DNA of 64,000 nucleotides from Rivularia sp. PCC 7116. GTDB taxonomy: Bacteria > Cyanobacteriota > Cyanobacteriia > Cyanobacteriales > Nostocaceae. The stretch is taken from positions 7,101,001 to 7,165,000 of the forward strand of contig NC_019678.1 of assembly GCF_000316665.1 (NCBI RefSeq), written 5' to 3'. Below are positions 15,192-23,197 of the stretch, in pieces. Below the pieces are notes generated by a model. The model was not told the origin of the DNA, did not search any database, and saw nothing but the letters and a program-made list of their open reading frames with translations. The translations under genes were made by a program, and so were the position numbers. The first letter of the stretch is position 1. Each line of letters opens with the position of its first letter.

Positions 15192-16907
15192 CTAATAAGG
15201 TAAATCTTGATTGCTGCTGATATTCAACAAATAATTTTCTAAATCAGCTTGCTCGTTACCGTTGAGATTAAGCTGCAAAATATCGCCAGTATTACTAAAA
15301 GCTACATTCACAGCATCACCAATAGAAGCCACAGTCAAGACAATTCTATCGGTAACATTGATAATCTCATCTTCGCCAAGAGTAAAATCTGTAATCACAT
15401 CGTTACCAAATTCAGAAGATAAAACGAACTTATCCCTACCACTTCCACCAGTCAAAGTATCGTCACCTTTCAAACCGTCGATGATATTATCTTGTTCCTT
15501 ACCTACAAGAACATCGTCTGAATCTCCACCCAAAATTAAATCTTGATTAGGTTTTGTTCCACCTTCAGTCAAACCCCATAACTCTCTACCGTTAACACCA
15601 TCATCAGCATTGAAATAAAGTTCACCGCTAAACTCTGTAAAGTCACCGGGGTTTGAAGAAGCATTTCCAGGATTGATATCATCAACCAAAACCGTACCAG
15701 CTTCAGTACCGTCGCTCTTCCATAATTCAACTCCATTGCTACCGTCGTCTGCTGTGAAATACAAAATTCCATCAAGACTTATCAGATTAGCTGGATTAGA
15801 AGAGTTTTCGCCAGGGTTAATATCTTTAACTAAAGTTGTACCCGACTCACTACCGTCACTTTTCCATAACTCAACCCCACTATTTCCATCATTAACGCTA
15901 AAAAACAAAGTACCGTTAACGTTAATCAGATTATTGGGATTTGAACCTTCGTTTCCTGAAACAATATCCTTAACTAAAACCGTACCCGCTTCAGTACCAT
16001 CGCTCTTCCACAATTCATTGCCATTAGTTCCGTCATCTGCGACGAAATAAAAAGTACCGTTAACATCTGCAAATTTATTTCCCGAATTCGACGTAGGAGC
16101 AGTAAAAGGAGTAGGAGAAATAGAAGAGTCGTTACCGGGATTTATATCTTTGATTAAAACAGTACCACTATCGGTACCGTCACTTTTCCAAAGTTCTCTA
16201 CCATTGGTACCATCCTCAGCGCTAAACAACAGGGTGCCGTTAATATCAGCGAGAAGATCGGGATTTGAAGAATCGTTGGGATTAATATTCTTAACTAAAA
16301 CTGTCCCTGCATCAGTACCGTCACTCTTCCAAAGTTCTTTATCTGGAGTATTTTGAATAGAGCTAGCATTTGCGCTGAAAAACAAAGTATTGTTAACAGC
16401 AATCAAATCTTCAACATTCCCACCTCCCGAACTGATATCTTGTTTAACTTGAACTGGTTGATTGGTATTGTTCTCAATCTTGAACAGTTTTGATTGAAAC
16501 AAATCCGAACTATCAAAACTAGTGTAGAAAATAGTCTCATTCAGTCTAGTTAAATTACTGATGTCTGCTGGCGCTCTTAGAGAGACATTAACTATTGAGA
16601 AAGTACCATCCGCTGTAGCGTCAGTCCGAATTAAAGATTTATTTGTAAATCCAGAAACCTGTAAAAAATATATCAGGTCATTTACCTTAACAACATCAAT
16701 GGGTGGAAATGAATTACCCCCAGAATCCTGTACCAAAACTGTACCCGCTTCGCTACCGTCTGTTTTCCAAAGTTGAGTATTTAGAGAATTAGTATCGAAA
16801 GTTGTAAAAAGCAGGTTTCCATTAACATCATCTAAAAAACCAGGATTAGAAGAATCTGCACCGGGCTTGATATCTTTAATTAAAGAAGCTGTTAAATTGT
16901 TATCCAT
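15192..16907 (-). CDS. ELWxxDGT-repeat protein with RTX-like C-terminus, copy 2
   Basis: 571 residues, a paralogue of the next gene downstream. It has the same opening (SLIKDIKPGADSSNPG), the same ELWKSDGT repeats, the same RTX-like block (LGGDSDDVLVGKEQD) and a near-identical tail ending NQDLPY. The N-terminal half diverges most, while the C-terminal 200 residues are the most alike, suggesting conversion or recent duplication. A GGGAG lies upstream of the ATG at 16907. No signal peptide is present, so type I secretion is presumed. Adaptation of the repeats to ligand or Ca binding is plausible but not shown. Confidence 0.82.
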   Translation of the reverse strand: MDNNLTASLIKDIKPGADSSNPGFLDDVNGNLLFTTFDTNSLNTQLWKTDGSEAGTVLVQDSGGNSFPPIDVVKVNDLIYFLQVSGFTNKSLIRTDATADGTFSIVNVSLRAPADISNLTRLNETIFYTSFDSSDLFQSKLFKIENNTNQPVQVKQDISSGGGNVEDLIAVNNTLFFSANASSIQNTPDKELWKSDGTDAGTVLVKNINPNDSSNPDLLADINGTLLFSAEDGTNGRELWKSDGTDSGTVLIKDINPGNDSSISPTPFTAPTSNSGNKFADVNGTFYFVADDGTNGNELWKSDGTEAGTVLVKDIVSGNEGSNPNNLINVNGTLFFSVNDGNSGVELWKSDGSESGTTLVKDINPGENSSNPANLISLDGILYFTADDGSNGVELWKSDGTEAGTVLVDDINPGNASSNPGDFTEFSGELYFNADDGVNGRELWGLTEGGTKPNQDLILGGDSDDVLVGKEQDNIIDGLKGDDTLTGGSGRDKFVLSSEFGNDVITDFTLGEDEIINVTDRIVLTVASIGDAVNVAFSNTGDILQLNLNGNEQADLENYLLNISSNQDLPY

Positions 16908-20409: not shown

Positions 20410-21468
20410 ATGACCATAGCAGTTGGACGCGCCCCTAGCACTAGAGGCTGGTTTGACGTAGTCGATGACTGGTTAAAGCGAGACAGATTCGTTTTTGTCG
20501 GTTGGTCGGGTATTTTACTTTTCCCCTGTGCCTACATGGCTCTAGGTGGATGGCTTACAGGTACAACTTTTGTATCTTCCTGGTACACCCACGGTTTAGC
20601 ATCTTCTTACTTAGAAGGCTGTAACTTCCTTACAGTGGCAGTATCCACACCCGCAGACAGTATGGGACATTCCCTATTGCTGTTGTGGGGTCCAGAAGCT
20701 CAAGGTGACTTCACTCGTTGGTGTCAATTAGGTGGATTGTGGACATTTGTAGCGTTGCACGGAGCTTTCGCTTTGATTGGCTTCATGTTGCGTCAATTTG
20801 AAATTTCCCGCTTGGTGGGAATTCGTCCTTACAACGCTATCGCATTTTCTGCACCAATTGCAGTATTCGTCAGCGTATTTTTGATGTACCCCTTGGGTCA
20901 GTCTTCTTGGTTCTTCGCACCTAGCTTCGGTGTAGCAGCAATTTTCCGTTTCTTACTATTCTTCCAAGGTTTCCATAACTGGACTTTGAATCCCTTCCAT
21001 ATGATGGGAGTAGCAGGTGTACTTGGTGGTGCGCTGCTTTGTGCAATTCACGGTGCAACCGTTGAAAACACATTGTTTGAAGATGGCGATGGTTCTAACA
21101 CCTTCCGTGCATTTGAACCAACCCAAGCAGAAGAAACTTATTCAATGGTGACAGCAAACCGTTTCTGGTCTCAGATTTTCGGTATTGCATTCTCCAACAA
21201 ACGCTGGTTGCACTTCTTCATGTTGTTCGTACCAGTAACCGGGTTATGGATGAGCGCAGTAGGTGTAGTTGGTTTAGCGCTAAACTTACGTGCTTATGAC
21301 TTCGTATCTCAAGAATTGAGAGCGGCAGAAGACCCAGAATTTGAAACTTTCTATACGAAAAACATTTTGCTGAACGAAGGTATCCGTGCATGGATGGCTC
21401 CTCAAGACCAACCTCACGAACAGTTTGTATTCCCCGAAGAAGTTCTACCTCGTGGTAACGCGCTGTAA
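20410..21468 (+). CDS. psbD: Photosystem II reaction centre protein D2
   Basis: 352 residues, the normal D2 length, starting at the ATG at 20410 (MTIAVGRAP); an upstream in-frame start at 20368 is not used by the family. The five transmembrane helices and all expected sites are present: the P680 histidine in FHNWTLNPF, the non-haem iron and QA site in [11 protein letters not shown], and the conserved C-terminus [11 protein letters not shown]2 binds chlorophyll, pheophytin and plastoquinone QA in the thylakoid membrane. In most cyanobacteria a psbD copy overlaps psbC by a few bases. Here a terminator follows and psbC is absent, so this is the solitary psbD copy of a two-copy genome (inference). 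Confidence 0.97.
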
Positions 21469-21518: not shown

Positions 21519-21549
21519 ATCCCTGCCATTTGGTGGGGATTTTTATTTT
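21519..21549 (+). terminator. Rho-independent terminator after psbD
   Basis: ATCCC...GGGAT stem with an inner CC/GG pair and an ATTT loop, followed by TTTTATTTT, 50 bp after the psbD stop. It confirms that psbD is transcribed alone. Confidence 0.7.
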
Positions 21550-21816
21550 GATTTTTTGTATTTGTAGCCAGACGCTAGGTTTTGCAGTCGCTTTACGGCA
21601 CTAAAATAATTTCAGAATTGATTCCGCTTAATTTATTGGTTCTGGGACTCAATTTGAACCAACTTAAACCAATCTGATTCCCGAATCTGAAAACTAAAAT
21701 CCAAAATTGTCAGATAATTGTGGATATTTGCTTCAAAGTCATGCTATAGTGTTTCTAAGATACAAAGAAAGAGCAAATTGCTCTATCTTATTTGAGATTA
21801 AAAGCCGCTTAGGCAA

Positions 21817-21828
21817 AAAGGAGGTGAT
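21817..21828 (+). promoter_or_regulatory. Near-perfect extended Shine-Dalgarno sequence
   Basis: AAAGGAGGTGAT is complementary over 12 bases to the usual 3' end of bacterial 16S rRNA. It ends 4 bases before the ATG at 21833 and is the strongest ribosome binding site in the window. An ATG at 21827 overlaps its end in the same frame. Confidence 0.7.
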
Positions 21829-21832
21829 GCCC

Positions 21833-21904
21833 ATGATAGAAAGTAGTATAAGCATGGGTCATCAAGTTGTAGCAAGCCGGCTGCGCGCCGGAGCTGTTCT
21901 CTAA
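21833..21904 (+). CDS. Small ORF, 23 codons, unknown peptide
   Basis: Encodes a peptide beginning MIESSISMGHQVV and ending RLRAGAVL. The start is fixed by the 12-base Shine-Dalgarno match at 21817-21828. The 3' half is markedly GC-richer than its surroundings and contains a CCGGC/GCCGG hairpin. A 17 bp inverted repeat follows the stop at once and a terminator lies 100 bp further on, so it appears to be the only ORF of a transcript of roughly 300 nt. No heterocyst-inhibitor motif (RGSGR) is present. I do not recognise the peptide; it may be a small protein, or a leader peptide in a regulatory RNA. Confidence 0.45.
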   Translation: MIESSISMGHQVVASRLRAGAVL

Positions 21905-21940
21905 AAATTAAATTAACTTTTTGAAAAGTTAATTTAATTT
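21905..21940 (+). repeat. 17 bp perfect inverted repeat after the small ORF
   Basis: The arm from 21905 (AAATTAAATTAACTTTT) pairs perfectly with 21924-21940 across a 2-base centre. It begins directly after the small-ORF stop. There is no U run on either side, so it is not a standard terminator; it could block ribosomes or 3' exonucleases. Confidence 0.6.
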
Positions 21941-22004
21941 AAGCGACAAGGCTGAATTGGAGTTCCTTCCGGCAGTCAGGTTGCAACTTGAAGACCCGAC
22001 TAGA

Positions 22005-22053
22005 CCGCTCTTACATTAGGTCATCCGACTTAAGTAAGAGCGGATAGTTTTTT
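22005..22053 (+). terminator. Terminator of the small-ORF transcript
   Basis: CCGCTCTTAC (22005-22014) pairs with GTAAGAGCGG (22034-22043) over 10 bp, followed by ATAGTTTTTT. It is a strong plus-strand intrinsic terminator. Confidence 0.75.
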
Positions 22054-23197
22054 AGGGGTTTTTATAAGAAATAGGTAATGGGAATAGTAATCGAGACTGT
22101 AAATTACCTGATATAGTCGAATAAAAATTCTAATCATCACCCTACGCTAAAAAAGATTAAGACTAGTGAGTGATTAGAATAACTGATAGATACTTAATCT
22201 ATGACTAATTAATTTCGGTTTTTCTTGAAAATTATTTATGAAACATCTGTTGGATTTTCTCTACACCAATCTGATGTTAGGAAATAGTAAAACTAACAGT
22301 ATTTGGCTGCAAAGTGAGGAAGTTGCATTAAACTGTAAGTTTTTCTCATCAAAATCGTAATCATTTTCGGCAGTTCTTTTGGTAAATTACCTAATTATCG
22401 GCATACCGTGGCTTAAATATTGACCTACGTACTCCCAAAAGAATGGGTTTTAGACTTTAGTTTTAGAGAAAGGGCAAACTCCTATATTCTTAGATGCCCG
22501 GAAAAAATGGATTAATTTGTTTTAAACCTGCCTTTTTTCTTTACGAAAGGTTAGGGGCTTTTTAAAAAGCCTTAATTTTCAAACATAGGAAATCCTCCGT
22601 TCTGGATCTATTTTCTGACAGACACGCTTCGCTAACGATCCAGAACGTGAAGCCCGCCCATTTTTTCTACAATTGTGACAAAATATGCGTAGTGTAGACT
22701 ACATTAACGAAATCAATAACAAAAATTATCAATTACTTCTTAAAGTCAAGTATTTTCTATCCTAAAGTAGGATGTCGTTTAGAATTCATCGAGTTAGTTT
22801 GGAAATGAAATTTTTAATATTCTTGGATTGAATCCCGGAGGTTGTATAAAGATTGTAGAAAGTGAAATATGCTCAAATAAGAGTCTGAATTAGATGAATA
22901 GCATTGCATATCATCTGTTCTAACTTCTGCCCTAATTAGTGTGACAGTTAACAATTTGACCATATATTGCGTTATGTTTCACTTGTCTTATAATTAAAGG
23001 CTATAAAGCATATGTTTTTGCATAAGTTAATTACATAGATTTTTACCTTAAATTAGTAGGTTCTTAGCTTAGCAGTAACTAAAATTGTGTTTGGGGTCAC
23101 TATGCCTCATCTGCAAGCTTCACTATGTAAGTGAATTTTTGTTCTAATTTGCAGCAAAGTAAATTATCCGTGCAAGGTGTGAGGAGAACGAGGAATA
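22054..23197. other. Spacer and leader region upstream of the porin
   Basis: About 1.1 kb without a convincing gene. It contains several hairpins: ATTCTAATCA..TGATTAGAAT at 22127-22180, GGCTTTTTAAAAAGCC near 22558, and CGTTCTGGATC/GATCCAGAACG at 22598-22647 followed by a T run near 22661. The last loop includes GACACGCTTCGCTAACG, a motif I associate with dispersed cyanobacterial repeats. The porin ribosome binding site GAGGAG lies near 23180. Confidence 0.45.

Follow-up and report, generated by a model that had tools for sequence, protein, structure and literature searches.

The stretch of DNA analysed here, referred to as the window, comprises 64,000 nucleotides of Rivularia sp. PCC 7116 (NC_019678.1, positions 7,101,001 to 7,165,000), and all coordinates below are counted from its first letter. 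A free-standing transcription unit with a predicted promoter and terminator lies 3' of psbD, at approximately 21757-22055. psbD ends at 21468 and is followed by a terminator-like site at 21519-21540, while the next gene after the small-RNA unit, which is porin-like, lies 1.1 kb downstream. A first-pass annotation had described 21817-22053 as a small-ORF transcript with a long Shine-Dalgarno sequence (SD), a 23-codon ORF, a 17 bp hairpin and a terminator. All four elements were found where it had placed them, and the real unit proved larger than the extent it had given. Two long pairings had been missed, 21856-21869 with 21984-21997 (S2) and 21826-21835 with 21853-21863 (S1). The features of the unit are as follows.

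21721-21750, + strand: predicted promoter, TGGATA and extended –10 TGC-TATAGT, from a consensus scan whose count of matches was not above chance
21765-21789, + strand: leader hairpin close to the predicted 5' end, an inverted repeat
21804-21814, + strand: small 5' hairpin GCC-GCTTA-GGC, from alignments of Cyanobacteriota and Chloroflexota
21817-21828, + strand: 12-nt SD, AAAGGAGGTGAT, complementary to the 16S rRNA 3' end
21826-21835, + strand: 5' strand of S1 (end of the SD and start codon), partner 21853-21863
21833-21904, + strand: 23-codon ORF, MIESSISMGHQVVASRLRAGAVL, from the ORF list and from frame and codon comparisons
21853-21869, + strand: shared switch strand within the ORF (codons 7-13), partner either the start region (S1) or 21984-21997 (S2)
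21877-21882, + strand: 5' strand of S5, CCGGCT, partner 21974-21980
21887-21893, + strand: 5' strand of S3, GCCGGAG, partner TTCCGGC at 21967-21973
21905-21940, + strand: 17-bp perfect AT-rich hairpin directly after the stop codon, an inverted repeat located in the family's variable insert
21984-21997, + strand: 3' strand of S2 in the 3' UTR, CAACTTGAAGACCC, partner 21856-21869 in the ORF, with covariation
22005-22053, + strand: intrinsic terminator CCGCTCTTAC...GTAAGAGCGG (arms 22005-22019 and 22029-22043) and T run (22048-22053), end of the unit

Transcription probably starts at about 21757. A TATATT-like –10 was seen again upstream of many Nostocaceae copies of the element, and the Chloroflexota copies described below carry a clear TTGACA-N17-TATAGT promoter at the corresponding place. 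The leader stem, AGAGC...GCTCT, recurred in Nostocaceae with differing letters. The small 5' hairpin is common to Cyanobacteriota and Chloroflexota, with two-sided pair changes in the latter. Of the items in the first-pass annotation the 17-bp hairpin is the least robust, as neither its sequence nor its length is conserved in the family. The terminator motif CCGCTC...GAGCGG was found repeatedly across cyanobacteria, and a closing terminator was present in the copies of both phyla read by eye. Compared with shuffled sequences, the fold gave z = –7.6 for 21790-22065 and –8.6 for 21757-22060.

The SD is complementary to the 3' end of the organism's own 16S rRNA. Its 12-mer has six occurrences in the 8.7-Mb genome, two of them antisense to 16S rRNA 3' ends, which confirms complementarity to the full anti-SD. 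Of the remaining four, one precedes this ORF, one precedes an L10-like gene and two precede no substantial ORF. The L10-like gene (G000:C1:1068576-1068587, L304), which reads as ribosomal protein L10, is the sole other plausible gene with the full 12-nt SD. Within the SD region GGAGGTGATG is nearly invariant in both phyla, and GGAGG precedes the start in 62/62 aligned copies. A second in-frame ATG at 21827, two codons 5' of the ORF start, is too near the SD.

By BLAST, the element was found in 136 of the 145 genomes of its own family, nearly full length in most of them and once per genome, leaving aside short matches to its AT-rich palindrome. Four near-complete genomes of the family (G013, G062, G079 and G110) gave no element by BLAST or covariance model, indicating that it can be lost. 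A covariance model built on the ORF region matched 93 of 292 genomes sampled across Cyanobacteriota, a count in which stricter filters lose weak matches. Many of the misses listed belong to one family of small genomes, presumably the marine picocyanobacteria. An exact-pattern scan first revealed the same layout in Chloroflexota (Chloroploca, Oscillochloris, Chloroflexaceae and Roseiflexaceae), and a combined model was positive in 50 of 301 genomes of this phylum, a few of the weakest being doubtful. The four weakest matches (L288-L291) were excluded from the structure and frame counts; they have AAGGAGGTGATGTGCAGTGA-like starts, some with a complementary GTTGCACCACCTC strand, and no clear ORF, and may be a diverged or a different element. 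Copies in both phyla have the long SD, the small hairpin at the 5' end and a short ORF whose start is AGT-AGT-like. They also share an ORF strand that complements the start region and, in the 3' UTR, a second strand complementary to it.

Model matches in sampled Bacillota (1/249) and Actinomycetota (1/246) were at chance level and neither resembled the element; beyond these and the two positive phyla the model search covered six single genomes. Exact-pattern matches in Paenibacillus and other Bacillota were rejected as unrelated. In these loci (L011, L012, L051, L101, L102 and L084, from Paenibacillus, Cohnella and Alkalihalobacillus) the same 16-mer SD/start pattern stands before short hydrophobic peptides, e.g. 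MEVKDALSLMFMFGMFILALLTYMKKK, which look like holin-like type I toxins and are unrelated to this RNA. Weak matches close to contig ends in Chloroflexota raised the suspicion of 16S antisense, but proved on reading to be real copies, in one clade beside an rRNA operon. In that setting (L294, genome G525) the RNA lies tail to tail with the adjoining operon. Searches of Rfam at gathering and permissive thresholds returned nothing relevant at the element for the window or 13 homologous loci, the peptide had no match in Pfam or NCBIfam, and phage, plasmid and viral collections gave no match.

The cyanobacterial RNA has almost certainly been reported already, as ncl0160 (PMC4734099). According to that paper, ncl0160 was first named in Synechocystis (6803) and is an sRNA gene with homologues in 83 of 89 cyanobacteria. 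A ribosome-binding site is followed by a conserved ORF of 23-25 aa whose stop codon identity varies; its function was given as unknown, and it was read as a small-peptide RNA (PMC4734099). The window family has the same traits, a 23-25 aa ORF, a ribosome-binding site, differing stop codons and a single locus across cyanobacterial lineages, so that the window RNA very likely belongs to the ncl0160 family, an identity that rests on this description and not on sequence. It differs in what is described here, a peptide that is hardly selected and two competing pairings. The part of the paper seen does not mention Chloroflexota members (PMC4734099), and the literature searched contained no further paper on this RNA. 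Judged by the sources searched, what is new comprises the members in Chloroflexota, the evidence of a hardly selected peptide and the two competing pairings.

The first-pass annotation had proposed an expressed small protein or a peptide-controlled RNA, and had named frame-disrupting indels in relatives as the observation that would speak against it. The frame largely survives. The distance from the start to a GGGTC motif was 23, 26, 32 or 35 nt, differing by codon multiples, in 150 of 153 cyanobacterial copies; of the three exceptions, two come from one family and have a compensated shift, and the third value is an artefact of the motif search. The Chloroflexota distances (17, 20 and 23 nt) are codon multiples as well, with two divergent clades in another register. 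Outside the ORF, the spacing from the 5' hairpin to the SD varies by single bases. ORF lengths among the 153 cyanobacterial copies were 23 (134), 24 (13), 25 (1) and 17 (5) codons, and the unique 23-codon ORFs end in TAA (62) or TAG (37).

Changes were spread evenly over the codon positions. A minimum spanning tree built from 94 unique ORFs gave 159, 181 and 166 changes at positions 1, 2 and 3 (p = 0.47), and the corresponding entropies were 0.54, 0.75 and 0.73. Synonymous changes on the same tree were in weak excess (90 vs 73 expected, p = 0.027), so the synonymous-site bias that the first-pass annotation had suggested checking was slight, with no third-position excess overall. Third-position changes were commonest in the last codons (AGAVL). 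Frame keeping together with the even distribution of changes indicates that an open frame is kept while conservation, as judged from the alignments, acts mostly at the nucleotide level and the peptide appears hardly selected. A small contribution of the peptide, mainly C-terminal, is possible.

These observations bear on the strongest of the rival explanations, an ordinary small-protein gene that works through its 23-aa peptide, with the hairpins doing no more than tuning translation. Its frame, start and stop are kept behind an extremely strong SD, and cyanobacteria repeatedly show both AGAVL at the C terminus and the SSK region, alongside the slight synonymous excess. Against it, the overall third-position excess is absent, and the AGT AGT and CTG codons hardly vary, whether at position 1, 2 or 3. 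In Chloroflexota, moreover, most peptides are 13-18 aa long, and some clades have quite different ones (WASPE, KSRAASVRS) while the pairings persist. We consider a functional peptide unlikely, and the small-protein half of the first-pass proposal weak; its RNA half gained strong support from covariation.

Among 62 aligned cyanobacterial RNAs, S2 and S3 together were paired in 93.8% of cells, and 14 of their 22 pairs showed two-sided changes (117 cells; 0/500 shuffles, a control that leaves shared ancestry in place). S3 by itself was paired in 98.2% of cells, and S5 in 98.7% with 15 two-sided cells. S1 was paired in 88.7% of cells in cyanobacteria and showed no covariation, as its 5' strand on the start side is nearly invariant; its retention there might be a side effect of keeping the SD and S2. 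In 36 Chloroflexota RNAs, S1 was 98.6% paired with 5 two-sided cells (0/500 shuffles) and S2 90.9% paired with 37 two-sided cells (0/500 shuffles). Since S1 and S2 share one ORF strand they are mutually exclusive, and covariation was thus seen for both exclusive pairings in Chloroflexota and for S2 only in cyanobacteria. The pairings were named from the same sequences in which they were then counted, which favours them over slid controls. A local ORF hairpin, CCGGC/GCCGG, had weak support. Many of the Chloroflexota folds place the stop codon inside or close to the apical loop of the S2 hairpin. In one clade (L207, L210, L211 and L272) it sits in the short loop closing a near-perfect hairpin, e.g. 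GGTCTCG-GTAA-CGAGACC, and this loop is a GNRA-like GTAA in most members.

Under soft constraints, the window transcript had a predicted energy of –112.9 kcal/mol without S2 (the S1 state), –113.8 without S1 (the S2 state) and –103.0 without both. The median difference, S2 minus S1, was –3.6 in cyanobacteria and –0.4 in Chloroflexota, with each helix worth 5-10 kcal/mol, and the two states therefore appear nearly isoenergetic in the model. With the last 48 nt present, the modelled probability that the start codon is unpaired rose from 0.14 to 0.48 in cyanobacteria, compared to 0.14 with shuffled tails (p = 1e-9). The same model test gave no significant opening of the start in Chloroflexota. Completion of the 3' end is thus predicted, on model energies, to free the start codon in cyanobacteria.

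We favour, with a probability of roughly 0.55, a free-standing small RNA gene of the ncl0160 family, a family extended here to Chloroflexota, whose product would be a bistable RNA gated by translation. In the incomplete transcript, the ORF strand would fold back on the SD and start codon (S1) and hide the start. Once made, the 3' UTR strand would compete for this ORF strand (forming S2, in cyanobacteria with S3 and S5 alongside), freeing the SD and start codon. A ribosome loaded on the unusually strong SD would have to melt S2 on its way to the stop codon, upon which S1 could re-form behind it, making initiation self-limiting. Selection would then act on the state into which ribosome traffic brings the RNA, not on the peptide. 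A fold set by translation is the simplest reading, as it fits the frame keeping, the peptide drift and the competing pairings. We infer the translation of the window copy and the order of events, as well as the regulatory output, which might be the sensing of initiation capacity or a region exposed to another RNA or protein. A tentative extension, which we regard as considerably less probable than the translation-gated model itself, is a deeply shared sensor of how available ribosomes are. By way of its maximal SD and a disposable ORF, one ribosome at a time would flip the bistable fold, and the RNA would report initiation capacity to the cell in Cyanobacteriota and Chloroflexota.

The occurrence of a single-copy RNA across many cyanobacteria and Chloroflexota, absent from Rfam, speaks for a basic role in regulation. 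Provided that the switch model is true, the reading frame is conserved for the passage of ribosomes and not for the peptide, which bears on how conserved short ORFs are read generally.

After a functional peptide, the remaining rivals rank in the order base-pairing sRNA, cis-acting leader and type I toxin mRNA. SgrS and RNAIII are dual-function, stand-alone RNAs that also carry a short ORF, and the window RNA could similarly be a trans-acting base-pairing sRNA whose ORF is secondary. It is a stand-alone, single-copy unit with a terminator and a long conserved structured RNA, as such an sRNA would be. Unlike in SgrS and RNAIII, the nucleotides that encode the ORF are also those that form the structure. 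Conservation is highest in the SD/start region itself, and the codon-multiple indels suggest an active ORF; we rate this explanation somewhat below the functional peptide.

The erm and cat translation attenuators combine a short ORF with competing hairpins on one shared strand, the SD being hidden in one state. The window RNA resembles them in its short ORF and its two mutually exclusive pairings that share a strand, and in several cyanobacteria a pterin-4a-carbinolamine-dehydratase-like gene (first downstream on the same strand at L008, L021, L040, L049, L072 and L108) or a porin-like gene comes next on the same strand. However, the SD that it hides is the one of the short ORF itself, the competing pairing is made with its own 3' UTR, and the unit closes with a terminator, with no regulated gene after it and no apparent downstream cis control, the next gene in the window being 1.1 kb off. 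Neighbours differ widely between lineages and none recurred across distant loci in those inspected, which indicates a stand-alone gene. A leader for a conserved downstream gene was rejected on this ground, and a cis-acting leader or attenuator of any downstream gene seems highly improbable. Least probable of all is a type I toxin mRNA: hok and AapA1 likewise fold metastably and sequester the SD before the 3' end is made, as predicted for the window RNA, but the window peptide is polar and charged, not of the short hydrophobic membrane type, and the element is single-copy and chromosomal in most genomes of its own family.

Two further observations were made in passing. At L110 and L297 the RNA adjoins what reads as a gene for ribosomal protein L25. 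Elsewhere in the window, at 15192-16907, a minus-strand ORF consists of repeated ELWKSDGTEAGTVLVKDI-like units.
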